Assembly: GCA_030539275.1 (NCBI GenBank)
Contig: JAUNSK010000017.1
Location: forward strand, 30,189 to 94,188
From: Oscillospiraceae bacterium
GTDB lineage: Bacteria > Bacillota > Clostridia > Oscillospirales > Ruminococcaceae
Length of the DNA stretch: 64,000 nt
Reading direction: 5' to 3'
Part shown: piece by piece, positions 2,991 to 17,042 of the stretch
Layout: the number at the start of each line of letters is the position of its first letter
Position numbering within the stretch: position 1 is the stretch's first letter
Position numbers and translations under genes: made by a program
The notes under the pieces: generated by a model
What the model was told of the DNA's origin: nothing
The model's input: only the letters and a program-made list of their open reading frames with translations
Database searches by the model: none

Positions 2991-3031
2991 CGTAATTCTC
3001 CTTTTAGCAATAAAATTACAGTATATAGAAA

Positions 3032-3053
3032 AATTTCTTTTTAAGAAATTATA
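3032..3053 (-). promoter_or_regulatory. Candidate operator at the XRE gene promoter
   Basis: AATTTCTT and AAGAAATT form a perfect inverted repeat around TTT. It abuts a TATAAT read on the minus strand at the upstream end. A good -35 at standard spacing was not found, so the promoter itself is uncertain. The placement fits XRE autorepression, which is inference. Confidence 0.35.
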
Positions 3054-3140
3054 CAACAGATAAAAAAATTTTTTACAAAAAGCACATAAAAATTCTATTT
3101 TTATTTATTTTTTCATAAGTTTCTACACACTTTTACTCAC

Positions 3141-3172
3141 AAAAAAAGCAGACGTTGTCTGCCTTTTTTGTG
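3141..3172 (-). terminator. Rho-independent terminator after flgM
   Basis: GCAGAC-GTT-GTCTGC forms a 6-bp stem flanked by A7 on one side and CTTTTTT on the other, so it could work in either direction. It lies about 30 bases past the flgM stop codon on the minus strand. Confidence 0.75.
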
Positions 3173-3198
3173 TAAATTCTTAGCTTAAGGCTGGTATA

Positions 3199-3501
3199 CT
3201 ACAGGCCTATATGCTGTAATATTGCATCTGCCACATCACGGGCAGAAACATTATATGTTCCGCTGCGTATCTGGGCCTTGAGAGCATCGATTCTCTCCTG
3301 TGATGCACCTGTGTTTATCTGTGAAGCAATCTCTTTTACACCGCAGTCAAGCTTATTGAATGCAGCTGCTTCAGGGCTGATTGATACAGAATCATTTTTT
3401 CCGCCGTTTAACGGTGATTTTACTGAACCCGGCTTTGCATTTTTATTATTTATCGCCTGTGTTCTCATATATCCGCTGCACGGATTAAAATCAATATTCA
3501 T
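3199..3501 (-). CDS. flgM: Anti-sigma-28 factor FlgM
   Basis: The 100-residue protein matches the FlgM layout: a flexible Ser/Asn-rich N-terminal half, a KNDSVSISPEAAAF segment, then C-terminal helices ending in the family-like RIDALKAQIRSGTYNVSARDVADAIL. In flagellated bacteria FlgM binds sigma-28 (FliA) and is released by export through the basal body. The ATG is chosen because AAAGGAG lies 9 bases upstream; a TTG three codons earlier is too close to it. It is monocistronic and transcribed away from parA. The TAAAGTTT upstream resembles a sigma-28 -35 box, but no matching -10 follows. Its presence implies that coupling between secretion and sigma-factor release was once, or still is, used here. 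Confidence 0.87.
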   Translation of the reverse strand: MNIDFNPCSGYMRTQAINNKNAKPGSVKSPLNGGKNDSVSISPEAAAFNKLDCGVKEIASQINTGASQERIDALKAQIRSGTYNVSARDVADAILQHIGL

Positions 3502-3696
3502 AGAAAACAACTCCTTTCAGTTGCCTAAAATATAAACCTCCGAAAAACCATCCCATCACCATATTATATATCGAAACTTTATGATATTTTTCTATACTAT
3601 AATAACGATTATTTTTGTTAAATGTCCGGTACCATTGAAAAGGAGGGAGAATTTTGCTATAATTTATATATTATTAATGATTTGCGAGGTTTTATC

Positions 3697-4461
3697 ATGG
3701 CTTTAGTCATCTCTGTTGTTACACAAAAGGGCGGCGTCGGCAAAACAACAGCCGCCAATGCACTTTCATCAGTTATCAGAGCTTCAGGAAAAAAAATTCT
3801 TGCAGTTGATTTTGACCCTCAGGCCAATCTGTCTTATAGCTTCGGGGCAGATACAACTGATTCCCTCACAATATATAATGTACTCAGAGGGGACGCACCG
3901 GCAGGCGAATGTATAATTTCAACAGCAGTCGGAGATATAATTGCTTGTGACATTCTGCTTAACTCTGCTGAACTTGAATTTGTCAGTGACAGCAGAGAAT
4001 ATCTTCTCAAGAATGCTCTGAAGAGCATTATGAAAAATTATGATTACATAATAATCGACTGTCCTCCGGGACTTGGAATACTTACAGCATGTGCACTGTG
4101 CACATCTGATTATGTTATTGTTCCGATGCTTCCTGATTCCTTCAGTCTGCAGGGTATCGTTCTTATCAACGATACTATAAACAGAGTCAGAAAGTCATGC
4201 AACCCTAACGTCCAGATTGCAGGAGTACTTATCAACCGCTTCAGTCCGTTTAGCCGTCATCACCGGGAAGCCAGAAAAACAGCCGATATGATCGCCGGGA
4301 AATGCGGCATAAGAGTATTTGATACCATTATCCGTTCATGTCCTGCACTGTCAGAAGCACATACACTTCAGACTGATATCACTGAGTACAGACGCTGCAG
4401 ACGCGCAATGAACGACTATATGCGGCTTTTTCATGAAATGCAGCAAAAACAAATTATATAA
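3697..4461 (+). CDS. ParA/Soj-type ATPase next to the export locus
   Basis: The 254-residue P-loop ATPase has the deviant Walker A KGGVGKTT near its N-terminus, a VDFDPQANLS switch I region, and IIDCPPGLG as Walker B. These define ParA/Soj/MinD family members that position DNA or cell-surface machines. Soj-like proteins normally pair with ParB; none is present here. The downstream partner is a ComFB-like protein 14 bases away. The start ALVISVVTQ is preferred over one 25 codons earlier because the upstream part has no similarity to the family and GAGG precedes the chosen ATG. Location between flgM and fliA suggests a role in placing or counting the export machine, by analogy with FlhG, but it lacks FlhG context (no FlhF). 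Confidence 0.85.
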   Translation: MALVISVVTQKGGVGKTTAANALSSVIRASGKKILAVDFDPQANLSYSFGADTTDSLTIYNVLRGDAPAGECIISTAVGDIIACDILLNSAELEFVSDSREYLLKNALKSIMKNYDYIIIDCPPGLGILTACALCTSDYVIVPMLPDSFSLQGIVLINDTINRVRKSCNPNVQIAGVLINRFSPFSRHHREARKTADMIAGKCGIRVFDTIIRSCPALSEAHTLQTDITEYRRCRRAMNDYMRLFHEMQQKQII

Positions 4462-4475
4462 CAGGAGGCACAAAA

Positions 4476-4859
4476 ATGTCAGAAAAAAAGAAACTGTCCG
4501 ATATAAACAAAAATCTTATGTTCAGCAAGATCATGCCGTCTTATAAAGCGTCAGCTGAAGGCTCCTGCACCCAGGGGTCTGCAAATCCTGAATCTGAAAA
4601 TCTCCAGTATATAAATATAAATGAACTGATAATCATCTCTTCAGCTGAGCGTATCATGACTGCACTCAGATGTTGCCGGTGCAGCAGATGTATGCGTACT
4701 GTCATTCTTGATGCACTCAACCGTATACCTGCAGATTACATATACACAACTCACACTGATGCACTCAGGGCAGCAGGGCAGCAGCCGACAAGCCTTATAA
4801 CTGATACCATTGTCAACTGCGCCTTGTCACTCAAGTCAAAAGGAGTTCACGCAAATTAA
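4476..4859 (+). CDS. ComFB-like small protein with CxxC motif
   Basis: The 127-residue protein carries CCRCSRC followed by MRTVILDALNRIPADYI. This is the hallmark of the ComFB family (a cysteine cluster, then ALNxLPPxY). Upstream is a MTALRCC helix, and the N-terminal 45 residues are low complexity. ComFB proteins were named from the Bacillus comF operon; recent work on cyanobacterial and other members describes them as cyclic dinucleotide receptors. AGGAGG precedes the ATG. It follows parA closely and its stop lies 11 bases from the convergent fliA stop. A role linking c-di-nucleotide level to the export locus is inference. Confidence 0.72.
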   Translation: MSEKKKLSDINKNLMFSKIMPSYKASAEGSCTQGSANPESENLQYININELIIISSAERIMTALRCCRCSRCMRTVILDALNRIPADYIYTTHTDALRAAGQQPTSLITDTIVNCALSLKSKGVHAN

Positions 4860-4870
4860 TTATAAATGTC

Positions 4871-5647
4871 TTATACGTCAATATAGTCAACAAGACATTT
4901 TCTAAGCTTTGATACAGCTCTGGCATTAATCTGTGAAACTCTCTGAATACTTACTTCTATAACCTTTGAAATATCACTGAGAGTAAGGTTTTCAAAGTAA
5001 TACAGGGTAAGTACAAGTCTTTCTCTTTCTTCAAGATTTTCTATGGCTGTCTTGAGCATCCTGCGCAGTTCATTTTTCATCAGCATGTTTTCAGGCATAG
5101 CACTGTCATTTGATGACATCACCATAAGCTCTCCTGCATTTGATACATTCTGCAGCAGCTCCTCAAAGGAAAATGTCACAGCACTTGCTGATTCATAGCT
5201 GTACTGTCTGAGTTTTTCAACAGGAATCTCCATCTTTGCGGCAAGTTCTGCCTCTGTAGGCTCTCTTTTAAGTCTTGAACACAGCTCCGCTCTTGAATCT
5301 GATATTTCCTTTGCCATTGCACGGACTCTTCTTGGGATCCAGTCCTGCTTGCGGACAAAGTCAATAACACCACCCCTTATACGCATAAACGCATAAGACT
5401 CAAATTTTATATTTCTCTCAGGGTCAAATTTTTCTATACAGTCAATAAGCACCAGTATCCCCTGGTTTACCATATCCTCAAGCTGAGCATACCCAGCAGT
5501 AACACCCCTCAGCTGAAATGCCACAGTTTTTGGTATATAACTGTACAGCATTATCAGTTTGTTTCTTATCCCCATGTCTTTTGTCGCCATATACTTCGAA
5601 TGAAGATCATTGAACTCTTCTTCAGACAACGGTGTTTTGTCAGTCAT
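4871..5647 (-). CDS. fliA: RNA polymerase sigma-28 factor (FliA/SigD type)
   Basis: The 258-residue sigma factor shows region 2 (LEDMVNQGILVLIDCIEKFD, then FESYAFMRIRGGVIDFVRK) and the DWIPRRVR stretch typical of FliA/WhiG. It also has region 3 (REPTEAELAAKMEI) and region 4 (LEERERLVLTLYYFENLTL, then EVSIQRVSQINARAV). It directs transcription of late flagellar and chemotaxis genes in motile bacteria. The ATG is chosen with AGGTGG 5 bases upstream; an in-frame GTG overlaps that site. It is the last gene of the export operon, 15 bases after flhA. Its antagonist FlgM is encoded 1.4 kb away. No flagellin or other late gene is visible in the window. Confidence 0.95.
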   Translation of the reverse strand: MTDKTPLSEEEFNDLHSKYMATKDMGIRNKLIMLYSYIPKTVAFQLRGVTAGYAQLEDMVNQGILVLIDCIEKFDPERNIKFESYAFMRIRGGVIDFVRKQDWIPRRVRAMAKEISDSRAELCSRLKREPTEAELAAKMEIPVEKLRQYSYESASAVTFSFEELLQNVSNAGELMVMSSNDSAMPENMLMKNELRRMLKTAIENLEERERLVLTLYYFENLTLSDISKVIEVSIQRVSQINARAVSKLRKCLVDYIDV

Positions 5648-5662
5648 CTCAACCACCTCTCA

Positions 5663-7714
5663 CTAACTAATTGTAATATTTCCAAGTGACTTAACATGAA
5701 CCTGAGAATCAATTTCACTTAATGAAAGTACCACTGCATCCGGATAGTATCTTTCCAGAAGGCGTTTAAGCATAAGACGCACCTTCGGAGAAGTCAGAAT
5801 GACTGCACTGCCGGTTTGTTCAGCGGCTTTTTTTATCTCATTTCCAGCAGATAAAATAAGACTGTGCAGATCGCTTCGGCTTAAATCTATGTAGGTACCT
5901 TCATTATTCTTAACAACGCAGCTGAGTATTTTATTTTCAGTGTCAGGATCAAGTCCGATAACATCCATCATATTTCTTTTTGCATACTTGTGTGATATTA
6001 CCCTCTTAAGTGAGGTCCTGACACGCTCTGTCATATCGTCAATATTTTTTGTCTGCTTTGCACAGTCGGAGAGTGTACTCAGTATCGTTTCCAGATCACG
6101 TACAGGAATATTTTCCTTAAGCAGACCGGACAATACCTTGTGAAGGTCGCCCACTGTCACCAGTGACGGTATCACATCATCGACAAGAGCTTCATTATTT
6201 TTTCTCAGGTTGTCGATCATTCTGTACACTTCAGTTCTGGTAAGTATCTCATATGCATGGTTACTGATAACCTCACATAGGTGCGTTATAATAAGAGAGC
6301 ATGGGTCTACAACAGTATAACCCTTCAGCTCAGCCTCACAACGTTTTTCTTCATCGATCCATTTTGCATCTGCACCAAAAACAGGATCCTTTACATAAGT
6401 ACCCTGGATATTAATATCAGATAAATTATCAGAAAGAACGAGCAGTCGTCCGTCCGAAATTTCACCGCTCACGATCTCTTCGCCTTTTATACAGATACGG
6501 TACTGGTCAAATCCTATCTCTTTTGAATCATTAAGCTTTACAGCTGGAATTATTATACCGAGTTCATGTGCATACTGCTTTCTGACTGCTGCTATCTGTT
6601 CAAGCATTTTCTGCGCATTCTCATCTTCAATCATTGAAATAAGGCCATAACCGAAATCTATATTCATATGTTCTATATCAAGAAGCCTGTAAAGATCAGC
6701 TGCGCTGTCGTCCGTATTCTGAACAGATGGCCGGGTTTCCTGAGTTTCGTCTGTATCATCAGCATTTTTTTTGTGCACAGATAATTTATAAATTCCTGCT
6801 GCTATCAGCAGTGACGACACGATAAGTATCTGTACCGGCGGAAATCCTGCAAAAAGAAGGATGAGCAATACTGAACCGGCTATAATAAATGAGATCGGCT
6901 GAGATGAAAACTGTACTGCAAGATCTGTTCCCAGATCCTCCTTTGCAGTTTTGCGTGTTATGATTATTCCGGCAGAAACACTTGTAAGAAGAGCCGGTAT
7001 CTGTGAAACAAGACCATCGCCAACAGTCGCTGTGCTGTATGTGCTTATTATCTGTGAAAAACTGCCGCTTCCTGATAATTTTCCGATGCATATTCCTCCT
7101 ATAAGGTTTACAAAGGTAACTATCAGAGATATGACTGCATCACCCTTGACGAACTTGGAGGCACCGTCCATGGCCCCGAAGAATGCCGACTCACGCTGGA
7201 TCTTTAAGCGCAGTGCCGCAGCTTCCTGTTCATCAATAGCCCCGTTGTTGAGATCTGAGTCAATGGCCATCTGTTTTCCTGGCAGCGCATCAAGAGTAAA
7301 TCTTGCTGATACTTCTGCAATACGTTCAGCACCTTTGGTGATAACCAGGAACTGAACCAGTACTATTATCAGAAATATTACAAGTCCGACTATAACATTG
7401 TCCTTTATAACAAGGCTTCCGAAAACCTTTATGACCTGTCCGGCATTGCCCTTATTCATAAGTATACTGCGCGTTGATGAAATATTAAGTCCCAGCCTGA
7501 ATACCGTCATAAGCAGCAGCAGTGCAGGAAAAGCTGAAAACTCCAGCGGCTCCTTTATGTACATAGCCATAAGAAGTATTATCATTGACAGTCCGAGCTG
7601 TACTATAAACAGAAAATCGAGTAACACAGAGGGCACAGATATAATAAACAGCAGTACGATCATCACTACAAAAACAGCTGTACTTTTTCCCAGTATGTTG
7701 GTCAGTCTTTTCAA
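5663..7714 (-). CDS. flhA: Flagellar export gate protein FlhA
   Basis: The 683-residue inner-membrane protein has the FlhA layout: an N-terminal half with about eight membrane helices, then a large cytoplasmic domain. Family blocks are intact, including SAFPALLLLMTVFRLGLN, SSTRSIL, the acidic loop (DSDLNNGAIDEQE, AMDGASKFVKGDA) and the C-terminal GYTVVDPCSLIITHL and VRDLETILSTL. FlhA couples proton motive force to export and docks chaperone-substrate complexes. The retained acidic residues argue for a working proton pathway. The start is TTG overlapping the flhB stop (TTGA). Length is close to the usual 680-700 residues. Confidence 0.96.
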   Translation of the reverse strand: MKRLTNILGKSTAVFVVMIVLLFIISVPSVLLDFLFIVQLGLSMIILLMAMYIKEPLEFSAFPALLLLMTVFRLGLNISSTRSILMNKGNAGQVIKVFGSLVIKDNVIVGLVIFLIIVLVQFLVITKGAERIAEVSARFTLDALPGKQMAIDSDLNNGAIDEQEAAALRLKIQRESAFFGAMDGASKFVKGDAVISLIVTFVNLIGGICIGKLSGSGSFSQIISTYSTATVGDGLVSQIPALLTSVSAGIIITRKTAKEDLGTDLAVQFSSQPISFIIAGSVLLILLFAGFPPVQILIVSSLLIAAGIYKLSVHKKNADDTDETQETRPSVQNTDDSAADLYRLLDIEHMNIDFGYGLISMIEDENAQKMLEQIAAVRKQYAHELGIIIPAVKLNDSKEIGFDQYRICIKGEEIVSGEISDGRLLVLSDNLSDINIQGTYVKDPVFGADAKWIDEEKRCEAELKGYTVVDPCSLIITHLCEVISNHAYEILTRTEVYRMIDNLRKNNEALVDDVIPSLVTVGDLHKVLSGLLKENIPVRDLETILSTLSDCAKQTKNIDDMTERVRTSLKRVISHKYAKRNMMDVIGLDPDTENKILSCVVKNNEGTYIDLSRSDLHSLILSAGNEIKKAAEQTGSAVILTSPKVRLMLKRLLERYYPDAVVLSLSEIDSQVHVKSLGNITIS

Positions 7715-8793
7715 ATCACTTCAAATCCTTTTTCTTTATTATCATAAACCTCAGCAAGCATCCCCGCAACTGCATAATAGTATTTCTGCGGTATTTTCTG
7801 ACCGGGTTTCGTACTCAAAAATATCGCGCGGGCAAGTTCAGGATAGTTGAATATTGCAATATTTTGTTTTCTGGCTCTGGCCCTGATTATGCGGGCAGAT
7901 GAATCTTTTCCTGATGAGATCACAACAGGTGCCTGATGAACAGCTCTGTCATATCCCAGTGCAACTGCATATCCGCCGTCTGAACAGATCACAAGCTCAG
8001 TATCTGTTTCATCTGATACATTAACGGATGAATCTGCATTATGGCGCGAAAGCATTGCATCTCTTACATACGGATCCGCCTGATCATCTTTGATTTCATC
8101 CTTTATCTCCTGCTTTGTCATTCTGATTTTTCTCATATGTCTTATGTACTCAGCCAGATAATCTGCAGCAGCAAGAATTGTCAGAGCTGCTAGCGTACGT
8201 GTTATTATTTCTGCCACAGCTGCAGCTATAAATGAAAAAGATTCAGACAAGCTCATATCAGCAAGCGTCTGAAGAACCGTAATTCTTTTATTAAGACACA
8301 GCAAAATGATCAGTAATACTGTAACTATCTTTAAAGCAGCTGCTGTAAGAGACCATAACCCGGATAATGAAAATACCCTTCCTATACTCAGACGCGGACT
8401 GATCCTATGTGTATCAGGCACAACTGACTGCGGCCTTATACTGAATCTGGTCTGAAGAAATGTTGCCGCAGCTGCTGCCGCACCAACTGCGGCTCCTGCA
8501 GGAATTACAGCAAACAGAAATCTTGAAGCACAGTATGAATATGTCTGTCGTGTATCTTCAGCACTGAGTGATGTCCGGCTTCCTGCCTCTGTAAAAAAAC
8601 AGGTTATCAGAGATTCAAGCATATCGCGTATCATCGGATACACCGCTCTCAATACCAGAAAAAAAACTGTTAGTGTAAAAAGTGAGATCACTTCACGGCT
8701 TACTGGTATAAGTCCTTCCCTGCGCGCTTTGATTTTTCTTTTTCTGGTAGGCTTTTCAGTTTTCTGAGAAACATCTGAGTCCAGTTTTACCAC
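7711..8793 (-). CDS. flhB: Flagellar export switch protein FlhB, NPTH motif replaced
   Basis: About 360 residues: a QKTEKPTRKRKIKARREG N-terminus, four membrane helices, and a cytoplasmic domain with YAVALGYD, APVVISSGKD and the NYPELARAI element. These are all family features. The four residues before YAVAL are SDGG (about 271-274), whereas nearly all FlhB/SctU proteins have the self-cleaving NPTH there. Cleavage at NPTH normally permits the switch from hook to filament substrates, so this protein probably stays uncleaved. The preceding RMMxxVPxADVV region is also degraded. The start is uncertain: GTG at the edge of AGAGGTGG is used, and a CTG three codons later has better spacing. It follows fliR by 7 bases and overlaps flhA by 4. 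Confidence 0.92.
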   Translation of the reverse strand: MVKLDSDVSQKTEKPTRKRKIKARREGLIPVSREVISLFTLTVFFLVLRAVYPMIRDMLESLITCFFTEAGSRTSLSAEDTRQTYSYCASRFLFAVIPAGAAVGAAAAAATFLQTRFSIRPQSVVPDTHRISPRLSIGRVFSLSGLWSLTAAALKIVTVLLIILLCLNKRITVLQTLADMSLSESFSFIAAAVAEIITRTLAALTILAAADYLAEYIRHMRKIRMTKQEIKDEIKDDQADPYVRDAMLSRHNADSSVNVSDETDTELVICSDGGYAVALGYDRAVHQAPVVISSGKDSSARIIRARARKQNIAIFNYPELARAIFLSTKPGQKIPQKYYYAVAGMLAEVYDNKEKGFEVI

Positions 8794-8800
8794 CTCTTGT

Positions 8801-9577
8801 TCATACAAGCGAGCATAGAGACCGCTGCATGGAATCAAACATAGAAATAATATAGTTCTCCAGAAATACAGTAACCGGTTTTGCCATTGCAAGCATTACT
8901 ATCATAAAAACTATTATTTTTATCTGCATATTCATAACAAACATATTGAACTCAGGAATAAGTCTCATAAGAATCCCCATACCTGTTTCAACTATAAGCG
9001 CTGCAGCTATAAAAGGAACTGCAAGTCTGACTGCAAGTGAAAAAACGCTGATAAATAGTTCTATTCCATACTGTGACACACTCTGAAGGCTCAGCCCGGA
9101 CATTCCCGCACTGACAGTGTCATATGACGATATAAGAAGTCTTATAAACACAAGATGACTGTTTGTTATAAATATATAGACAAGAAAGAGAATATGCAGC
9201 AGTTTTCCCGTTACTGACTGAGCTGTCCCTGAAAGAGGATCAAATACTCTGCCCATGAGAAGACCTGACTGCTCATCAATAATATCACCTGCAAATGAAA
9301 GCATATAGAAGTAAATATTAAATACATATGCCAGCACAAATCCAACAGCCAGCTCACTGGTTATACATAACAGCAGCTCAGGAATATTGACAATATCACA
9401 TGTTATTCCTGTAAATGGCATAAGAAGCAGTGAAATGCCTGCCGCTGCAGCTGTTTTTACAGCGAAGCTTACCTGGCTTCGGGAAATAACAGGATTAAAA
9501 AATACTATAGCTGAGATTCTTGCCAGCACTAAAATGTATGAATAAAAATTATCTGCAGTAAACTGTAACTGTGCCAA
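8801..9577 (-). CDS. fliR: Flagellar export gate protein FliR
   Basis: The 258-residue protein has about six membrane helices and the family sequence DNFYSYILVLARISAIVFFNPVI at its N-terminus. Later blocks include SELAVGFVLAYVFN, DIIDEQSG and a NMQIKIIVFM-type C-terminal region. FliR forms the export pore with FliP and FliQ. The start is TTG because TAGGAG lies 8 bases upstream and the protein then begins at the point where FliR homologues begin. The 11-base gap after fliQ contains this ribosome binding site. Confidence 0.93.
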   Translation of the reverse strand: MAQLQFTADNFYSYILVLARISAIVFFNPVISRSQVSFAVKTAAAAGISLLLMPFTGITCDIVNIPELLLCITSELAVGFVLAYVFNIYFYMLSFAGDIIDEQSGLLMGRVFDPLSGTAQSVTGKLLHILFLVYIFITNSHLVFIRLLISSYDTVSAGMSGLSLQSVSQYGIELFISVFSLAVRLAVPFIAAALIVETGMGILMRLIPEFNMFVMNMQIKIIVFMIVMLAMAKPVTVFLENYIISMFDSMQRSLCSLV

Positions 9578-9588
9578 ACTATCAGCTC

Positions 9589-9852
9589 CTATAAAGACGC
9601 AATTGCAGTGAAAATTCCACTGAAAAATTCTACACATACACTTACCATCCATGTTCCGAGCGTCAGAAATACCACAGCCACAGCAATTATCTTAGGAACA
9701 AATGTCAGTGACTGTTCATGGATCTGTGTTACTGACTGAAACACTGATACTATAAGCCCTGCAGCAATACTGACAAGCAGTACCGGTGCTGAAATTTTAA
9801 ATGCTGTGTAAACAGCGGAAGTAAAGATACTGAGTATCTGTGACTTGCTCAT
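9589..9852 (-). CDS. fliQ: Flagellar export gate protein FliQ
   Basis: The 87-residue protein has two membrane helices separated by SVTQIHEQSLTFVPKI, the most conserved FliQ segment. The length is normal for the family. FliQ packs around the FliP/FliR pore. The ATG is preceded by GGGGGG about 10 bases upstream, and it follows fliP by 19 bases. Confidence 0.95.
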   Translation of the reverse strand: MSKSQILSIFTSAVYTAFKISAPVLLVSIAAGLIVSVFQSVTQIHEQSLTFVPKIIAVAVVFLTLGTWMVSVCVEFFSGIFTAIASL

Positions 9853-9871
9853 AATTATTACGCCCCCCGTT

Positions 9872-10651
9872 TCAGTTAAAGCTGACTATCAGCGACTTTA
9901 TAAGAAGATTCCATCCGTCTGCAAGAATAAAGAGCATGAGTTTGAACGGCATAGAGATCATCGCAGGCGGAAGCATAACCATTCCCATTGACATAAGCGT
10001 ACTTGACACCACAAGATCTATAATTATAAACGGTATGTATAAAAGAAAGCCTATTATAAATGCTCTCTTGAGTTCACTTGTTACAAATGCCGGAGTAACT
10101 ACCCATATGCTCAGCTGTGTCAGTTTTTCCCTGGAATCATACTGCGACTTGTCTATGATCCCTCTGTCATCAGCAACAGACATGAACATGTCAAGGTCAT
10201 CCTTGTATACCTGTTTGAGCATGAAAACCTTGAGCGGCTCAGATCCTTTGTCAACAGCCTCCTGAAATGTTATGTCTCCGGCCTTGTACGGCTTGTACGC
10301 CTGGGTATTTATCTGGGTGAATACAGGAAGCATAATAAATACGGAAATAAATGCTGAAAGACCTATTATGACCTGATTCGGCGGAGAACCTGATGTACCT
10401 ATCGCATTTCTCAGAAATGAAAAGGCAATTACTATCCTTGTAAAGCATGTCATCATGAGCAGCATAGTCGGGATAAGAACTACAACGCACAGAAGAAACA
10501 AAAGATCTGTTATCCCGCTGTCCTGACCGCCCGTTTGTGAATCGACCTTGATATTTACGGAAGATTCCGCCGATACAGTCGATGACATAATAAATATCAG
10601 AAACAACACAGTAATAAGTGAAAAAACAAAGCAGACAATACTGCGTTTCAT
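9872..10651 (-). CDS. fliP: Flagellar export gate protein FliP
   Basis: The 259-residue protein begins with a cleavable-looking signal peptide (MKRSIVCFVFSLITVLFLIFI, then TVSAES), as many FliP proteins do. Helices bearing TCFTRIVIAFSFLRNAIG and SPPNQVIIGLSAF follow, then a periplasmic segment with MLKQVYKDDLDMF, then TPAFVTSELKRAF and the C-terminal LPPAMISMPFKLMLFIL. Five FliP subunits make most of the export pore. The second in-frame methionine is chosen as start because it gives the signal peptide directly and avoids overlap with fliO. Its ribosome binding site is weak (GGATC). Confidence 0.93.
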   Translation of the reverse strand: MKRSIVCFVFSLITVLFLIFIMSSTVSAESSVNIKVDSQTGGQDSGITDLLFLLCVVVLIPTMLLMMTCFTRIVIAFSFLRNAIGTSGSPPNQVIIGLSAFISVFIMLPVFTQINTQAYKPYKAGDITFQEAVDKGSEPLKVFMLKQVYKDDLDMFMSVADDRGIIDKSQYDSREKLTQLSIWVVTPAFVTSELKRAFIIGFLLYIPFIIIDLVVSSTLMSMGMVMLPPAMISMPFKLMLFILADGWNLLIKSLIVSFN

Positions 10652-10670
10652 TTTATGATCAAAGATCCGT

Positions 10671-11075
10671 TTATTTAGAGTCTGAGCTGTTTTTATACTT
10701 ATCACCTCTGTTTTTTATTGTTCCTATTCTTTCTTTAGCGGCTTCTTTCAGAATTTCATAGAAATCACCGCCGCTGCTTTTGTCACTGCTGCTTTCAAGA
10801 TTCAGCTCATCGCTGTCAAGATCACATATATACTCTAAATGCTCCTTGCCTGAGCCAACCAGCAGATACTTCTGACCTGCCCTGATTATCATAAGGTATT
10901 TGTCAGGACCTGCCGGCATACTCTCAATTATCCTTAGATTTTTTCCGTTTGCCGACGGGCGCCCGTAACGTTTTCCTATCAGCTTTGTTGAAATATATGC
11001 AAGATAAAGAATTATAATAAAAACCAGAACAGCAGCAAGAACGCTGAAAACACTTCCTATTGCGGATTCTCCCAA
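10671..11075 (-). CDS. fliO: FliO-type flagellar export accessory protein
   Basis: The 134-residue protein has one membrane helix near its N-terminus (FSVLAAVLVFIIILYLAYIS). A short cytoplasmic domain with IIESMPAGPDKYLMIIRAGQ and YLLVGSG follows, as in FliO. The C-terminal tail is charged and low complexity. FliO helps assemble FliP complexes. The order fliN-fliO-fliP supports the call. A TTG start is preferred because CTGGAG lies 8 bases upstream; the upstream GTG overlaps that site. Confidence 0.87.
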   Translation of the reverse strand: MGESAIGSVFSVLAAVLVFIIILYLAYISTKLIGKRYGRPSANGKNLRIIESMPAGPDKYLMIIRAGQKYLLVGSGKEHLEYICDLDSDELNLESSSDKSSGGDFYEILKEAAKERIGTIKNRGDKYKNSSDSK

Positions 11076-11101
11076 AAAAATCACTCCAGAATGAATATTT
11101 G

Positions 11102-11446
11102 TTAAACAAGCTCTGTAATTTTAATACTTACGCCTCTCTGATCAGCTGCTATGTCTCCATGAGCTATGATCTTTGAATTGATAACCAGATCTGATTTTGC
11201 GCCGACAGGCTTGTCAAGCTTGACTACGCATCCTGCCCTGAGTCTGAGCAAATCGCTCAGAAGAATACTTGTACGTCCGATCTCTCCTCGTACTTCTGCT
11301 GTTACATCTGAAAGTGCACTCAGACTGATTTTTTTGTTATCTGTTGCTGCAGGCTGATCCCCGGCAAAGTCAGGAAACCTGACCGCAGCATATCTGGAAT
11401 TGTCATCTGCCTCTGGAATTTCGTTATGAGTTGATTCATTATTCAT
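11102..11446 (-). CDS. fliN: FliN-type SpoA-domain protein
   Basis: The 114-residue protein has a variable N-terminal 40 residues and one SpoA domain: LSDVTAEVRGEIGRTSILLSD, then LLRLRAGCVVKLDKPV, and a C-terminal end with GVSIKITELV. FliN forms the lower C-ring and the cargo-sorting platform that binds FliH. FliM and FliG, its normal C-ring partners, are absent from this operon, so this is the only switch-type protein visible. It may act only as a docking protein for the ATPase complex, as SctQ does in injectisomes; that is inference. Confidence 0.87.
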   Translation of the reverse strand: MNNESTHNEIPEADDNSRYAAVRFPDFAGDQPAATDNKKISLSALSDVTAEVRGEIGRTSILLSDLLRLRAGCVVKLDKPVGAKSDLVINSKIIAHGDIAADQRGVSIKITELV

Positions 11447-11505
11447 TAAAATTTCATCCGGTTCCTTTCAGTCTGAATCTTATTTCTGAATAAACATCAG
11501 TCTGA

Positions 11506-11994
11506 CTATATATCTGATGTTTCTTCCGCAGCCGGTTCATTTATGTCCGGATTTTTGCCGGAAGATATATGATGCGATATAAATTCTTCTATATAATTCT
11601 GATTTTCTTTGTCAAGTCTGTGAAGATACTCAGACTTCTGCTTTTCCTCAAGCTTTGCAAGTTCAGTACATTCATATGATATTTCTATCACTGTCTTCTG
11701 CTGTACTTCTATAGACTTTTTTACATTTTCAATTTTTGCAGCGATATCAGTCAGTTCATTTCTGAGTGCACTCTTTTTGATCTCAAGCAGCTGCATGTCA
11801 ACAACCCTTACTCCGCTCATCATTCTGGAATTAAGGTCAAAGCAGATCTTCTCTGACTGCTGCATGACAGACTGCTGGGTGAGTATCAGAGCATTCAGCT
11901 TTACATGAAGCCTCATCAGAGTGTTCTTTTCTTTTTTAATCTGCTGATTTTTGTATTCTTTCATTTTTTCCAGTGAAAATTTAAAATCATTCAT
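11506..11994 (-). CDS. fliJ: FliJ-like coiled-coil export protein
   Basis: The 162-residue protein is almost all charged helix. It starts FKFSLEKMKEYKNQQIKKEK, which matches the FliJ pattern, and continues as heptad-rich coiled coil. FliJ is the central stalk of the FliI ATPase ring and contacts FlhA. Sequence similarity across this family is always low, so the call relies on the N-terminal pattern, size and position directly after fliI (12-base gap). The Pro/Glu-rich tail is unremarkable. Confidence 0.82.
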   Translation of the reverse strand: MNDFKFSLEKMKEYKNQQIKKEKNTLMRLHVKLNALILTQQSVMQQSEKICFDLNSRMMSGVRVVDMQLLEIKKSALRNELTDIAAKIENVKKSIEVQQKTVIEISYECTELAKLEEKQKSEYLHRLDKENQNYIEEFISHHISSGKNPDINEPAAEETSDI

Positions 11995-12006
11995 TTAAAA
12001 CCCAGC

Positions 12007-13332
12007 CTACTCAAAAATTTTTCGCATGATACTTATTGTTTCTTCCATTGAAAAGCGTTCGTTAATATCCTGTTTTAAAAATTCATTTATACTTTCAAGC
12101 CTGCTTATGGCATAATCAAGTTCAGGATTGGTTCCGGTCTTATAAGCACCTATTGAAATAAGATCCTGATTCTCTTCATATACTGACATGATCTTTCTGA
12201 TCTTCCCGGCAGTTTCTTTCTGATCGTCTGAAATTATTTCTGACATCAGTCTGCTGATGCTTGAAAGAATATCGATTGCCGGATAGTGATTTCTCATGGC
12301 CATGTTCCTTGACATCATTATATGACCATCTATTATTCCTCTTACGGTATCAGAGATCGGTTCGTTGCTGTCATCGCCCTCGACAAGTACTGTAAAAATA
12401 CCTGTTATCGAACCTGTTTCAAAGTTGCCGCATCTCTCAAGAAGCTTTGGCAGTGACGCATAAATCGAAGGGGTATATCCTCTTGCGATAGGAGGCTCAC
12501 CGGCACTCAGACCTATTTCACGCTCTGCCATGCAGAAACGTGTAAGCGAATCCATCATCAGCAGAACGTCTTTTCCCTGATCCTTGAAGTATTCGGCTAT
12601 TGCTGTTGCAGTCTGAGCACATTTTGATCTCATCATCGCGGGCTGGTCAGATGTTGCTACTACAAGGACACTGCGGCTTATACCTTCATCTCCGAGATCT
12701 CTGTTGATGAATTCCATCAGTTCTCTGCCGCGCTCGCCAACCATTGCGATAACATTAACATCTGCATTGATGTTTCTTGCTATCATACCCATGAGTATGC
12801 TCTTTCCTACTCCGCTTCCGGCAAATATACCCATTCTCTGTCCTTTGCCTACAGTCAGCATTCCGTCTATCGCCTTTATTCCGAATTCAACCGGTTCTCT
12901 GATCGGAGGACGTTTCATAGGATTTGACGGCCTGCCGTTTATCGAGTAAAATGTCTGACCCTCGATCTCTCCCTTGCCGTCTATAGGATTACCGACAGCA
13001 TCTATTGTCCTCCCTATAAGCTGAGGACTCATTTTTATTTTTAGTTTTTCACCTGTATTGCTGACAAAGCTTCCATATCCGATACCTGTTATATCACCAT
13101 ATGGCATCAGCAGTACTTTTCCATTTCTGAAGCCGACTACTTCAGACATAATGCTTTTTTTATCTGTGCCGGCTATAGATATATTGCAAACATCACCTAT
13201 ATTACATGAGATTCCGGATGCTTCAACAGTGAGCCCGACAATCTGTTCAATTTTCCCCAGTGTAGTATAAAAGTTGTTAAGCCTCATACTTCTTCTGAGG
13301 TTTTTCTGTGACAGCCCGTGTATCTGACTCAT
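12007..13332 (-). CDS. fliI: Flagellum-specific ATPase FliI
   Basis: The 441-residue protein is a complete type III export ATPase. It has an N-terminal beta-barrel (GKIEQIVGLTVEASG), Walker A GIFAGSGVGKS, GERGREL, Walker B VLLMMDSLTRF, and SLPKLLERCGNFETGSITG. It drives chaperone release and delivers substrates to FlhA. Several in-frame starts exist. The ATG used has GAGG 9 bases upstream and gives a normal-length N-terminus, overlapping fliH by 56 bases. A later ATG overlapping the fliH stop by 11 bases is the alternative. Confidence 0.95.
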   Translation of the reverse strand: MSQIHGLSQKNLRRSMRLNNFYTTLGKIEQIVGLTVEASGISCNIGDVCNISIAGTDKKSIMSEVVGFRNGKVLLMPYGDITGIGYGSFVSNTGEKLKIKMSPQLIGRTIDAVGNPIDGKGEIEGQTFYSINGRPSNPMKRPPIREPVEFGIKAIDGMLTVGKGQRMGIFAGSGVGKSILMGMIARNINADVNVIAMVGERGRELMEFINRDLGDEGISRSVLVVATSDQPAMMRSKCAQTATAIAEYFKDQGKDVLLMMDSLTRFCMAEREIGLSAGEPPIARGYTPSIYASLPKLLERCGNFETGSITGIFTVLVEGDDSNEPISDTVRGIIDGHIMMSRNMAMRNHYPAIDILSSISRLMSEIISDDQKETAGKIRKIMSVYEENQDLISIGAYKTGTNPELDYAISRLESINEFLKQDINERFSMEETISIMRKIFE

Positions 13333-14038
13333 ACTCATCATCCTCATCGGTAAATTCGTTAAAATACTTTCGAATATTCTGCAGCTGTGTCAATACAGAA
13401 GCGACTATTACGCCCTCTGCTGTATGAATAACACATGTACCCTTATCTGCATCGCGTCTGAGTTCCACCTCTACACGCTGATCCTCTTTTGCATCCGAAA
13501 GCTCCTTTTCAAGCTGTGCAGCTGACTCCCTGAGTTTATCTGATACCTCAACCTTTATCCACTGGGCATCGCGTATTGATCTTATCGCCCTCTGGACCAG
13601 TGAAAATAACATTTTATCATCGTCATCAAGCTTTTTGCAGACGAGTTTTTCTGCCACATCCACTGCCAGTCCTCTTAGTTCCTTCGCATATATGTCAAAA
13701 TACTCTTCCTGCTCTTTTTTTATCTGGGCAAGTGTCTTTTCTATACTGTTAAGCCCTCTGCAAAGTATATCATTTCTGGCAGCAGTTCCTTCCTGATAAC
13801 CAGTGTTATATGCTTTTTTATAGATCTCCTCGGTTTTTTTCTCTGCCTGAGAAATCATAAGCCCGCACTGTCTTGATGCATCTTCAAGAAGCTGCCCGGC
13901 ATCAGGACTCTGTATATATGTATCTGTCTGACATGACATCTGTGCTGTTTTAGCCGAATCCGGATGCTGTGTGTAATCCGGAATTATGACAGGCTGGTCT
14001 GACTTTGATATTTCCTGTTTTTTTATTATCCGGCCCAC
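13277..14038 (-). CDS. fliH: FliH-like export ATPase regulator
   Basis: The 253-residue protein has a disordered N-terminal part, a central Glu/Lys/Gln-rich coiled coil (AEKKTEEIYKKAYNTGYQEG), and a C-terminal domain with ELRGLAVDVAEKLVCKKL and ADKGTCVIHTAEGVIVASV. These match FliH, the dimeric stator that binds FliI and FliN. The start is GTG with AGGAAAGGATG 7 bases before it. It follows fliF with only 22 bases between. In most operons fliG lies here; there is no room for it. Confidence 0.87.
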   Translation of the reverse strand: MGRIIKKQEISKSDQPVIIPDYTQHPDSAKTAQMSCQTDTYIQSPDAGQLLEDASRQCGLMISQAEKKTEEIYKKAYNTGYQEGTAARNDILCRGLNSIEKTLAQIKKEQEEYFDIYAKELRGLAVDVAEKLVCKKLDDDDKMLFSLVQRAIRSIRDAQWIKVEVSDKLRESAAQLEKELSDAKEDQRVEVELRRDADKGTCVIHTAEGVIVASVLTQLQNIRKYFNEFTDEDDEYESDTRAVTEKPQKKYEA

Positions 14039-14060
14039 TTAGATACATCCTTTCCTGACG

Positions 14061-15107
14061 TTAAGATTTTTTATCATCCTTTATCATTTTTCTGATGATA
14101 TCAGCAGCTGCCTTCGGATCTTCTTTTATTAATTTGCTGATATCTTCTTTTTTTATTTTTTCTTTAGAAACGCAGCGTGTTTTGCCGGAAAGCATATCTG
14201 CATATTCGTTGTTTTCTCTTTCAAGCCTGGATATTCTCAGGTTTGCCCTTATGCTGTTGATAACCGCAGCAAGCGTAATAAGAAACAGAACAGCGCATAC
14301 CCATAACATTGCAGTTTCCCTTGAAGTAAACGGAATGTCCTGTGTATCATTTTCCGGCTGTGTCTGAGCCGGCTGTTCATCAGACGGTAAAGTTTCCTGT
14401 ACTTTGTCCTGTGCTGCTGATACAGGAACTGACTGTCCTATTTCAATTCCGGTAGCTGCATTTATTACTGTTACATCATCGGGCTCCATCTGCTGGGCAC
14501 TGAATGCTACAAGTTTTTTCACAGCATCCGCCTGTTTAACATCAAAAGCATCCGGATCCTTAAGCGTCAGCATAACACTGGCTGTTGCTTTGTCCGGATT
14601 ATCATCCCACACGTAATCGGTCTCCTGAGGCACGCTTATTGTTACAACAGCACTTCTTATGTTATCTATTCTTTTAATGGTTGTCTGGAGTCTGTCCTGA
14701 AGCTCAAATCTGAGTGCCTGTTTTTTCTCAAAATCGCTCATTGTCATACTGAGATTATCAAAAAAAGTACCGTATGAAGGAGTTGACTGCGGATAGCCCA
14801 TTTCAGCAAGCTCATATACTATCTCGTCCCATTGATCACTTCGTACCTCGATCTCACCATCAGAGCTTATCCTGGCATCAGCATTCATATTTTTCAGCTG
14901 AACAAATACATCTGTAGCCTCGCTTTTTGTCATGCCCGGAAATAATTCTATCCAGGATGCAGACTGTCTGTTAAGGAAAAACGTAATGCATGCTGCGCCC
15001 ATTGCTATTGCAATAACACTCAGTGCAAACAGCGTTTTCTGCTTTGATGACATTTTATGATATGTACTGTTGAGCTTTGAAATTATATTATTTTCTGATT
15101 CTTTCAT
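14061..15107 (-). CDS. fliF: Short FliF-like MS-ring protein lacking RBM3
   Basis: The 348-residue protein is much shorter than usual FliF (about 520-570). It has a first membrane helix (25-46), ring-building motif 1 (50-105, WIELFPGMTKSEATDVF), motif 2 (about 128-222, VKKLVAFSAQQMEPDDVTVI), then a Gln/Pro/Glu linker (224-262). A second membrane helix (266-287) and a cytoplasmic tail ending DISKLIKEDPKAAADIIRKM follow. The roughly 200-residue RBM3 plus beta-collar, which normally encloses the export gate, is missing. That architecture is closer to SctJ of injectisomes, although the sequence is FliF-like. The C-terminal tail resembles the FliG-binding end of FliF, yet fliG is not next to it. 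Confidence 0.85.
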   Translation of the reverse strand: MKESENNIISKLNSTYHKMSSKQKTLFALSVIAIAMGAACITFFLNRQSASWIELFPGMTKSEATDVFVQLKNMNADARISSDGEIEVRSDQWDEIVYELAEMGYPQSTPSYGTFFDNLSMTMSDFEKKQALRFELQDRLQTTIKRIDNIRSAVVTISVPQETDYVWDDNPDKATASVMLTLKDPDAFDVKQADAVKKLVAFSAQQMEPDDVTVINAATGIEIGQSVPVSAAQDKVQETLPSDEQPAQTQPENDTQDIPFTSRETAMLWVCAVLFLITLAAVINSIRANLRISRLERENNEYADMLSGKTRCVSKEKIKKEDISKLIKEDPKAAADIIRKMIKDDKKS

Positions 15108-15127
15108 TTTTAACTCATTTCCGATTA

Positions 15128-15421
15128 TTAAATCTGCATTTCAGTTATGTTTTTATATGCCTCAACGGCACGGCTGATTATCTGGGATTTGATACCCAGC
15201 TCAAGTTCCTTTATCTGAACAGAGTCAGAAGTATCGATCGGAACAGTAATTTGTGATATATCCTTAACGGCACTGCTCTGTACTGTCTGTGTCACACTAT
15301 CAAGAATATCACTGAAGCTGATCTTATCGCCGCTGCCTTCTGATACTCCTGAAATATTTGACTTTGACAGGGAATTTATCTTTGAAATACCGGCCGGAGA
15401 AACTGAAAATGAAAAATCCAT
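15128..15421 (-). CDS. fliE: FliE, MS-ring/rod junction protein
   Basis: The 97-residue protein has the FliE layout: a low-complexity N-terminus, SFSDILDSV in the middle, and the conserved C-terminal helix SQIISRAVEAYKNITEMQI. FliE bridges the MS ring and proximal rod and is the first exported component. The ATG is preceded by GGCGGTG 7 bases upstream; longer versions lack a binding site. It is the first gene of the operon. flgB and flgC, which usually precede it, are absent: a sigma-A promoter lies directly upstream instead. Confidence 0.87.
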   Translation of the reverse strand: MDFSFSVSPAGISKINSLSKSNISGVSEGSGDKISFSDILDSVTQTVQSSAVKDISQITVPIDTSDSVQIKELELGIKSQIISRAVEAYKNITEMQI

Positions 15422-15479
15422 AAAATTACACCGCCATGTCATATTAACAAATTTATAATATGGAAAACTATATATTTTC

Positions 15480-15508
15480 ATTATACTATAAATAACTTTA
15501 AATTTCAA
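15480..15508 (-). promoter_or_regulatory. Sigma-A promoter of the export operon
   Basis: On the minus strand TTGAAA and TATAAT are separated by 17 bases, about 60 bases before the fliE ATG. This is the only good promoter found ahead of the 13-gene operon. It shows no sigma-28 or sigma-54 features. Confidence 0.7.
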
Positions 15509-15573
15509 GTAAAGATTGGTGAGTAAATGTTATCTTTATTATACAAATAATCAGGAATATAATTGTAACATAT

Positions 15574-15610
15574 AAAAACCAGGTGCATTTATATAAACGC
15601 ACCTGGTTTC
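15574..15610 (-). terminator. Terminator after the GH13 gene
   Basis: AAACCAGGTGC and GCACCTGGTTT form a long stem with an AT-rich loop. It ends in GGTTTTT on the minus strand, shortly after the GH13 stop codon. It separates that gene from the export operon. Confidence 0.85.
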
Positions 15611-15624
15611 ATAATTATGTAAAA

Positions 15625-16932
15625 TCAATATACCTTCCACAAATGAGCACTGTATGGTGCCAGTTCACTTCCTCCGCCGAAATCGTGTTCTGTACCATCA
15701 ATAAGATCTGTTGCTCTTTGGGCACCTGCATCAAAGTGTGCTGTATAAGTCTGACCGTCAGCATTTACAGCTGCAATGACTCTTTCACCGTCAGCCTCTC
15801 TCTCAAAAATACACTGTCTGTTTGTAAGATGAAGTATTTTAAATCCTCCGTAGCATAGTGCCCTGCTGTCTTTGTGTGCCTGTGCAAGACTCCCGATCCA
15901 CTTTGTCAGATCGTTTTGCTGCGGTTCGTCAAAGCATACCCTGAGAGCAGGATCACCGTCAGACTTCATAGCTTTTGTTCCCCATTCACTTCCGTAGTAT
16001 ACGCAAGGTATTCCCGGCATTGCAAACATAAGAGCATAAATAAGCTTTAGATGCCCGGGGTCAGTAAGCTGACTTGCTATCCTTGAAACGTCATGATTAT
16101 CAACGAAAGACAGCAGATGCATTCCGCGGTATCTACACCACTGTTCAGGTCCGAACTGATTTTTGAGTGAATGGCAGATCTCGAACATATTCATACAGTT
16201 AAAGCTCGAGTAAAGTCCTTTATAACATTCATAATTTGTTGCGCTGTCAAGCATTTCATTATTTACAAACATGCTGTAATCGCCGTGAAGAAGTTCTCCG
16301 AGAAGGAAGAAATCCTTTTTCTGAGAATCACAGAATCTGCGCAGACGTTTTATAAACTCCTTGTCAAGACAATATGCTACGTCAAGACGGATTCCGTCAA
16401 TATCAAATTCCTCAATCCACTTTCCGACACACTCAAGGATATGATTTACTACCTCTTCATTTCTGAGATTGAGCTTAACAAGATCATAGCAGCCTTCCCA
16501 GCCCTCATACCATAAGCCGTCATTATAGCATGAGTTGCCTGCAAAGTTTATATTGAACCAGTTTATATATCTTGAGTTTTCACGTTTTTCAAGAACGTCT
16601 CTGAACGCCCAGAACCCTCTTCCCACGTGATTGAATACTCCGTCAAGTACAACTCTGATATCATTTTCATGAAGCTTCTGACATACATTCTGAAAGTCTT
16701 TGTTTGATCCGAGTCTTGCATCAATTTTAGTGTAGTCTCTTGTATTGTATCCGTGAGTATCAGATTCAAAAACAGGTGAAAAATATACAGCATTGCATCC
16801 TGTCTGTCTGATATGTGGTATCCATGAGATGACCTTAGTAATATTATTTACAACCTTACCGTCATTCTCATAGGATGCTCCGCAGAATCCAAGCGGATAT
16901 ATCTGGTAAAATACACTTTCGTAAGCCCACAT
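15625..16932 (-). CDS. GH13 alpha-amylase family enzyme, cytoplasmic
   Basis: The 435-residue (beta/alpha)8 glycoside hydrolase has the four GH13 regions: VVLDGVFNHVG, DGIRLDVAY with the nucleophile near D184, FLLGELLHGD with the acid/base near E213, and FVDNHDVSR with the third acid near D281. There is no signal peptide and no carbohydrate-binding module, so it probably acts inside the cell on imported maltodextrins, as cyclomaltodextrinase or neopullulanase-like enzymes do. Exact specificity cannot be assigned. TGGAGGA lies 7 bases before the chosen ATG. It is a single-gene unit flanked by terminators. Confidence 0.9.
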   Translation of the reverse strand: MWAYESVFYQIYPLGFCGASYENDGKVVNNITKVISWIPHIRQTGCNAVYFSPVFESDTHGYNTRDYTKIDARLGSNKDFQNVCQKLHENDIRVVLDGVFNHVGRGFWAFRDVLEKRENSRYINWFNINFAGNSCYNDGLWYEGWEGCYDLVKLNLRNEEVVNHILECVGKWIEEFDIDGIRLDVAYCLDKEFIKRLRRFCDSQKKDFFLLGELLHGDYSMFVNNEMLDSATNYECYKGLYSSFNCMNMFEICHSLKNQFGPEQWCRYRGMHLLSFVDNHDVSRIASQLTDPGHLKLIYALMFAMPGIPCVYYGSEWGTKAMKSDGDPALRVCFDEPQQNDLTKWIGSLAQAHKDSRALCYGGFKILHLTNRQCIFEREADGERVIAAVNADGQTYTAHFDAGAQRATDLIDGTEHDFGGGSELAPYSAHLWKVY

Positions 16933-17042
16933 AAGCAAATCCTCCATAGCTAAGATATTTACAAAAATAAGTATTGCATATTGTATATTATACTATTTTT
17001 ATATACAAAAATCAATAACATATTCGTCAGTATTTCTTCATA

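Follow-up and report, generated by a model that had tools for sequence, protein, structure and literature searches.

What becomes of a flagellum when its rod, hook, filament and motor are gone and its export machinery stays? The question is raised by a flagellar-type export operon at positions 4871-15421 of a 64,000-nucleotide stretch of DNA (hereafter the window) from an Oscillospiraceae bacterium, the window extending to the end of its contig (contig 45) in an assembly of 3.68 Mb (96% complete, 3.6% contamination). The first-pass annotation, made from the window alone, offered two readings: a minimal flagellum-derived secretion system, or part of a dispersed and diverged flagellum. The former is the better supported, since motility domains are absent from the whole genome, with secretion itself as its predicted component. 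We put forward, as a moderately probable interpretation, that a flagellum has here been reduced in place to a non-motile, membrane-bound device for protein export.

The operon is genuine. Pfam profile matches identify 13 closely packed genes, all on the minus strand and together spanning 4871-15421, and they bear out the annotated content of a complete export gate, the ATPase complex, FliE, a short FliF, one SpoA protein and sigma-28. These genes, the signals at the upstream end, and a flgM gene that lies outside the operon and had been left out of the annotated finding, are the following:

15575-15610, minus strand: terminator-like stem-loop after the upstream amylase-like gene (16-pair stem, then a T run)
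15480-15508, minus strand: sigma-A-type promoter-like box before fliE (TTGAAA-17-TATAAT, 11/12 matches)
15128-15421, minus strand: fliE (97 aa); C-terminal helix RAVxAYKxIxxMQI retained and inner part shorter in the alignment with genus FliE
14061-15107, minus strand: short fliF (348 aa); PF01514, E 1.4e-35
13277-14038, minus strand: fliH; PF02108, E 4.1e-8; genus identity 45%
12007-13347, minus strand: fliI, export ATPase; PF00006, E 2.4e-87; above the NCBIfam FliI cut-off; alignment
11506-11994, minus strand: fliJ; PF02050, E 1.5e-4; 37% identity to genus FliJ, equal operon position
11102-11446, minus strand: fliN-like gene for a SpoA protein (114 aa); PF01052, E 1.8e-13; genus identity 32%
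10671-11084, minus strand: fliO; PF04347, E 3.8e-13
9872-10705, minus strand: fliP; PF00813, E 4.9e-75; above the NCBIfam fliP cut-off
9589-9852, minus strand: fliQ; PF01313, E 1.1e-25
8801-9652, minus strand: fliR; PF01311, E 7.5e-48
7711-8892, minus strand: flhB, with SDGG replacing NPTH; PF01312, E 5.8e-74; mechanical first start, true start probably later
5663-7714, minus strand: flhA; PF00771, E 4.3e-228; first 215 residues best conserved, remainder strongly diverged
4871-5656, minus strand: sigma-28 (fliA); Sigma70 domains; NCBIfam FliA_WhiG 211.7 bits, above cut-off
3199-3501, minus strand: flgM, anti-sigma-28, a lone gene outside the operon; PF04316, E 1.7e-13

The FliJ (E 1.5e-4) and FliE (E 7.7e-4, in the longer open reading frame 15128-15508) matches lie under the Pfam cut-offs, and FliE also under that of NCBIfam (19.4 bits vs a cut-off of 30), so that both calls also use position and alignment. 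The largest intergenic gap is 59 bases, which leaves no space for further genes, as had been annotated; where genes seem to overlap, by as much as 92 bases, this hinges on mechanically chosen start codons. The promoter proposed before fliE is present as a sigma-A-type box, of a kind common in the region (52 boxes in 3000-17000 vs 40.5 expected from shuffles). Of the terminators proposed on both sides, the upstream stem-loop (15610-15575) was recovered; at the other end, in the 11 bases that separate fliA from the convergent comFB gene, the terminator scan detected none.

The gene order in close relatives shows what the operon once contained. We compared a genus set of 11 genomes, including the bacterium's own, with the ten relatives labelled G001-G010. 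In three of these (G001, G006 and G009) the genes after leuS are flgB, flgC, fliE, fliF and fliH, while in the window the order is leuS, one amylase-like gene, fliE, fliF and fliH, flgB and flgC being gone. In G006, whose operon could be read completely (its flgB call being a Flg_bb_rod match under cut-off), fliH is followed by fliI, fliJ, fliK, flgD, a PF12611 protein, flgE, motA, motB and fliN, and then by fliO, fliP, fliQ, fliR, flhB, flhA, sigma-28 and two flgF/G-type genes. Thus flgB, flgC, fliK, flgD, the PF12611 protein, flgE, motA, motB and the two flgF/G-type genes are absent from the window operon, which is therefore the orthologous operon minus its motility genes; the comparison across relatives proposed by the first-pass annotation upholds the deficit it had noticed. 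Further flagellar genes of G006 lie at other loci: fliG, a flgM-flgN-flgK-flgL-fliW-csrA-fliD-fliS cluster, and fliM-fliY with a response regulator gene after it.

Some peculiarities of the relatives may be recorded in their own right. The motB of G006 is split over two overlapping frames, one with the plug part and one with the OmpA part (L041 9851-10781), and the flhA of G004 is split in two and contains an in-frame TAA (C58:11083-13177, L049), by assembly error or as a broken gene. In G006 (L232 4293-17341) and G010 (L233 2121-12483) opposed flagellin genes flank a tyrosine-recombinase-like gene; in the former, two arms of 323 bases, 94% complementary and taking in the flagellin starts, are separated by 10.6 kb, with a tandem array of similar frames between them. 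These might represent an invertible flagellin cassette or just paralogous genes.

Could the missing genes simply reside elsewhere, as in an ordinary flagellum with its other genes dispersed? The genus does scatter its fliG, fliM/fliY, flgM-flgK and flagellin loci. However, the flagellin/FlgL domain (PF00669) has no match in the genome at E 0.1 and is present in 10/10 relatives (at flagellin strength, E 6e-36 or better, in 7/10, with one weaker match each in G002, G003 and G004). The rod/hook domain (Flg_bb_rod) likewise has none at E 0.1, and is found in 10/10 relatives and in 47 of 49 genomes tested, these being 48 of 50 FlhA-positive genomes plus G008, with the partial G026 and the weak G047 left out. 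FliG_C has none at E 0.001 and occurs in 48/49, including 10/10 relatives. Flagellar-type MotA (E 3e-28 or better) is absent from this genome and from G008 and present in 9/10 relatives; the only, weak, MotA_ExbB match here is an ExbB-like protein beside an ExbD-like gene (L290 7815-9302, contig 23). FlgD, FliD, FliS, CsrA, FliW, FlgN and FliK gave no tblastn match in about 201 kb of the genome, the remainder not having been searched; FliK is absent from the operon position that it occupies in G006 and FlgD from the operon, neither having had a whole-genome search. The nth gene and its neighbour, which adjoin fliS/fliD in G006, are here directly followed by another gene, and the missing genes would have to sit in the approximately 4% of the genome that is unassembled. 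Genome-wide domain searches thus recovered no complete rod, hook, switch, motor and flagellin loci elsewhere; the genome check proposed by the first-pass annotation yielded no flagellin, rod/hook domain or flagellar-type MotA, and did recover fliM, fliY and a truncated fliG. Since this FliG remnant also has no torque domain, we regard a dispersed ordinary flagellum as barely credible; dispersal applies only to the C-ring genes, whose full-length forms are likewise dispersed in the relatives. Methyl-accepting chemotaxis proteins are absent as well, but above cut-off they are also absent from 9/10 relatives, so that this absence is not special to the genome. As a separate observation, these nine relatives carry flagellar genes and so apparently have flagella without chemotaxis; only G005 has an above-cut-off chemotaxis protein, and three relatives have weak matches.

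Two technical explanations were considered and set aside. Contamination is rejected because the contig has the gene order of G001 (smc, ftsY, yqeK, lytR, rsfS and, by eye, leuS, then the operon) and because its leuS is 70% identical to those of five genus members, which are 75% identical among themselves. An assembly gap is an unlikely cause of the losses, given that the fliG, fliM/fliY and operon sites are assembled, with the genes cut down there, and given the arrangement after nth. Gaps can nevertheless imitate loss, as in G008 (81% complete), which is without FlhA and flagellar-type MotA and has one rod match, yet has FliG_C and flagellins.

The C-ring genes tell how far the reduction has gone. 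FliG and FliM are indeed missing from the operon, as annotated, but the description of a system without switch genes was too strong, for fliM and fliY survive and FliG is cut down, on another contig (contig 8). The genome encodes three SpoA proteins, two of them the diverged FliM and FliY, placed near the genus-syntenic position after neighbor genes common with the relatives and two intervening genes. FliM (303 aa) is without the LSQHQIDEL peptide that G001 and G006 carry at the N terminus, presumably the binding site for CheY-P; its domain match is E 4e-6, vs 2e-36 in G006, and it misses the NCBIfam FliM cut-off (85 vs 219.6). FliY (318 aa) retains a SpoA match of E 1e-21, and the cheY-like gene beside fliY is gone, whereas G006 has a response regulator gene after fliM-fliY. 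Approximately 6.5 kb past fliM/fliY lies a truncated FliG of 173 aa with a degenerate N-terminal part and a well-matched middle domain (E 3.5e-20) carrying NEHPQ, the EHPQ motif being presumably the FliM binding site. Its frame ends after the middle domain, and the torque domain is missing; a FliG_C score of 21.4 bits falls in the middle part and under the cut-off of 23.3. A single gene separates this remnant from what by eye is a homologue of the gene adjoining fliG in G006. This intervening gene has a weak dockerin match (E 0.002, under cut-off; L203 3133-4167, contig 8), from which a cellulolytic, Ruminococcus-like organism can only be guessed at, and the direction of the homologue is inverted with respect to G006.

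Losses at the level of domains are also seen within the operon, as judged from sequence matches to solved structures. FliF has 348 aa vs 531-538 aa in six relatives, and its alignment shows RBM1-RBM2 strongly conserved, approximately 190 residues after them missing, and the second transmembrane (TM) segment and C-terminal helix kept; its match to the FliF chain in 6scn (560 residues, presumably from Salmonella) covers residues 33-216 of that chain. The missing segment presumably corresponds to RBM3 and the beta-collar of known FliF, and the retained helix to the one that binds FliG in other FliF proteins. In known MS rings the rod sits inside RBM3 and the beta-collar, and RBM2 encircles the export gate, so the cut in FliF would follow function. 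In FlhB, SDGG stands where 4/4 aligned relatives have NPTH. The collected loci encode 156 distinct FlhB proteins with a length of 320 aa or more; 155 have NPxH (NPTH in 152, and NPEH, NPDH and NPVH in one each), and only this one is without. In Salmonella, an apparatus in which FlhB cannot be cleaved stays locked in its rod/hook specificity (PMC3708937). With hook and FliK gone, such a specificity switch would not be needed.

Is the resulting system still of the flagellar type, or closer to an injectisome? In NCBIfam comparisons the flagellar models outscore the injectisome models for each of FliF, FlhB, FlhA, FliR, FliP, FliI and FliN. FliF resembles SctJ in architecture (RBM1-2 and TM) and reaches neither cut-off (SctJ 58 vs 162; FliF model 88 vs 130). 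The operon itself holds no secretin, SctF needle, SctD or translocon gene, the genome not having been searched for these. Judged from its sequences, the system is flagellar by descent and no longer qualifies as a flagellum: the export gate, the ATPase complex and the C-ring proteins FliM and FliY/FliN are there, whereas flagellin or filament, rod and hook, the torque parts (FliG C-terminal domain, MotA stator) and the FlhB NPTH are not.

A crucial question is whether these genes still do anything, or are instead a relic, functionless genes that have been decaying since motility was lost and whose frames chance, recency or polar effects have kept open. Mean identity to the genus (in brackets, mean within the genus; 5 to 9 relatives per gene) is highest for FliI, 79% (88%), leuS, 70% (75%), FliP, 64% (81%), and sigma-28, 60% (79%); it is 53% (89%) for FlhA, 52% (85%) for FliQ, 51% (70%) for FlgM, 47% (71%) for FliF, 45% (57%) for FliH, 45% (75%) for FliR, 44% (64%) for FliO and 37% (71%) for FliJ, and lowest for FliN, 32% (64%), FlhB, 31% (76%), and FliE, 30% (70%). 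Within FlhA, residues 1-215 keep 62-75% identity, residues 216-330 keep 49% (within genus 77%), and residues 331 onward 40-56% vs 92-93% within the genus. Sixteen outgroup FlhA sequences are 47% identical to the window FlhA vs 59-61% to nine relatives, and this greater distance indicates a speed-up on the present lineage. Nevertheless, 17 genes are all open frames with no stop codons, where a rough neutral simulation of 14 genes expects approximately 54 (it treats half of the divergence as neutral along this branch, is crude, and is silent on the most recent period). In addition, for every one of the 14 genes, each compared with one relative, differences are most frequent at third codon positions. 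Intact frames after a long divergence and the third-position pattern argue, from sequence, for retained function; further points that sit poorly with decay are the 79% identity of FliI, the incidence of the losses, which hit motility parts and spare the gate, the ATPase and FliF RBM1-2, and the retention of the promoter box and of the close packing. We thus find a relic unlikely, yet it draws on observations that weigh against an export device in general: the system is known from one genome only, the other 10 genus genomes keeping FliG_C and flagellin-domain genes; the rapid evolution of FlhA, FlhB, FliE and FliN also fits relaxed constraint; FlhB has lost its otherwise near-invariant NPxH motif; and the canonical sigma-28 motif is not enriched, with 38 matches in the genome vs 33 in the reversed control. 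To these must be added that no substrate, needle or outer channel has been identified; that six of the eight operon proteins tested (FliF, FlhB, FlhA, FliR, FliP, FliI, FliN and FliE) fall under the NCBIfam flagellar cut-offs, only FliP and FliI passing, while 8/9 pass in G006 (FliF, FlhB, FlhA, FliP, FliN, FliE, FliG and FliM, of which FliF, FlhA and FliM narrowly; FliR fails, and FliI was not among the nine); and that no sister system was found among 84,980 species genomes.

The last of these points concerns rarity. In the scan of the species genomes FlhB returned nothing and FlhA 395 relatives, with a best identity of 43% among the best 80 of the 395 and the best named matches, at 41-43%, in Clostridia; the FlhA scan missed even genus members (52-54%) and may omit own or very near genomes, and so is weak evidence of rarity. 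The FHIPEP (FlhA) domain has 50 matches in 149 genomes and 71 in 394 genomes of the order (own included in both), and the window FlhA is the lowest-scoring full-length FlhA among those 71. We inspected the flhA neighborhoods of 51 of the 71, the other 20 being 15 covered by the 49-genome tests (own included) and five partial or weak matches. Rod/hook homologues lie nearby in 45/51; the remaining six are five members of one family and one 3.4-kb contig, and in them the absence concerns the surroundings of flhA and not whole genomes, at least some rod/hook genes sitting on other contigs in three of the five family members. The other genome without a Flg_bb_rod match among the 49 is G078 (L051, L052), a 0.7-Mb, 97% complete genome of the same family with a strongly diverged flagellar cluster. 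It has no rod domain match but hook- and rod-like frames by eye, and was therefore not counted as a second reduced system but set aside as a putative diverged flagellum.

The retention of the regulators sigma-28 and FlgM suggests a more specific role. Both are kept in the genome, which makes FlgM a candidate export substrate, the sole one that can be named, and FlgM may indeed be exported. One might go further and envisage a timing or sensing device, in which the gate mainly exports FlgM and its activity, reflecting the energy of the membrane, sets how much sigma-28 is free to drive what are now non-flagellar genes. Of the regulatory flagellar genes, those found to persist are FlgM and sigma-28, at 51% and 60% identity to the genus, and the FlgM domain occurs in 11/11 genus genomes. 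However, the canonical sigma-28 motif, enriched in G006 (47 vs 16 in the reversed control), is not so here, and a scan of six stretches of this genome (the window and five loci, a small sample) did not recover the flagellin leader motif of the genus. We consider such a device improbable.

Under the export reading that we favor, the machine can be pictured as follows. The bacterium is probably Gram-positive with a single membrane, as its Firmicutes-like relatives suggest. The FliOPQR-FlhA-FlhB gate would be encircled by a FliF ring that keeps only the gate-encircling part, and would stand on a remnant C-ring of truncated FliG, FliM, FliY and FliN; this remnant would dock the FliH-FliI-FliJ ATPase complex, which would bring the substrates. 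These would pass the cytoplasmic membrane via the proton motive force, with FliE at the exit; if the cell has a single membrane, nothing beyond the gate would be needed to reach the wall space. The parts shed would comprise those for torque (the stator and the FliG torque domain), for CheY signaling (the FliM N-terminal peptide and the cheY-like gene beside fliY), for structure (rod, hook and filament, with the hook-length control FliK) and for the specificity switch (the FlhB self-cleavage motif). The core might instead serve a non-secretory purpose as a membrane platform; that of Bacillus subtilis is reportedly a platform for nanotubes. FliP and the first 215 residues of FlhA are well kept, and hat-shaped inner-membrane structures related to the flagellar T3SS (type III secretion system) are described from Gram-negative and Gram-positive cells in PMC9380563, which also cites a nanotube role of the flagellar core. 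A platform alone leaves the retention of FliHIJ, FliE, the FliF ring domains, the C-ring, FlgM and sigma-28 unexplained, and we regard it as very improbable.

Two neighboring genes complete the picture of the locus:

3697-4461, plus strand: ParA/Soj-like ATPase adjoining flgM; PF13614, E 8.4e-51 (longer open reading frame 3622-4461)
4476-4859, plus strand: ComFB-domain protein, convergent with sigma-28; PF10719, E 1.3e-7

The same pairing (window 3697-4859) is found in G006 and G009; in G006 the ParA-like homologue is approximately 9 kb from fliG, with the ComFB homologue beside it. ComFB proteins have been reported as cyclic dinucleotide receptors.

In a wider context, the losses might mean that a Gram-positive has, independently and fairly recently, turned its flagellum into a non-flagellar type III export system, a change visible at domain resolution and a claim for which we see the balance as evenly poised. 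The same even balance applies jointly to its parts: FliF turned into an SctJ-like ring, FliG cut behind its FliM-binding domain, FliM without the CheY peptide and FlhB without its switch. If true, this would parallel, in a monoderm, the step from which injectisomes are postulated to have arisen, and be a rare snapshot of a motility organ turning into something else. Flagellar relatives in the same genus make each loss placeable on protein domains and testable, and the case would part what export needs (gate, ATPase, FliF RBM1-2, FliE and a C-ring scaffold) from what motility needs. It also raises the questions of what passes the type III gate, and whether the loss of FlhB self-cleavage accompanies that of the hook.

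How does the system compare with those already known? Export cores of flagellar type in cells that have no flagellum are an established kind. The genus relatives G001-G010 have the orthologous export apparatus, at the same locus where seen, but unlike the window they keep flagellin-domain genes (10/10), rod (10/10), FliG_C (10/10) and flagellar-type MotA (9/10). Buchnera, a Gram-negative endosymbiont, is said to have filament-less hook-basal bodies, so that in this non-motile cell, too, the flagellum has been cut down to an organ of export, but it reportedly keeps rod and hook genes, unlike the window. A monoderm case with these domain losses did not come up among the matches listed in searches of open-licence papers, which is not proof of absence. 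Closest by design are the T3SS* of Myxococcus and the flagellar export genes of a non-flagellated Lysobacter, both Gram-negative, as we take Lysobacter to be. The latter, L. enzymogenes OH11, also has flagellar T3SS (FT3SS) genes without a flagellum, which exported a test flagellin and affected twitching (PMC7277350). These genes, unlike those of the window, are not in a single operon, and losses of FliF, FliG, FliM or FlhB domains go unmentioned in the available part of that paper. Non-flagellar T3SS (NF-T3SS) were found only in diderms in a 2012 survey, their flagellar origin being reconstructed only at great depth, and the Myxo type is without FlgBCDEK, FliE, FliG and MotAB (PMC3459982). 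The needleless T3SS* of Myxococcus is needed to lyse prey and is linked to killing together with three of the four pilus tips (PMC12075869). Like the window system it keeps the export gate, the ATPase and a small ring and misses rod, hook, stator and needle, and its export role is proposed only (PMC3459982, PMC12075869). It differs in being Gram-negative, the first branch in the NF-T3SS tree, and without FliE and FliG, whereas the window system keeps FliE and a truncated FliG, has flagellar-type scores and has its flagellar relatives in its own genus.

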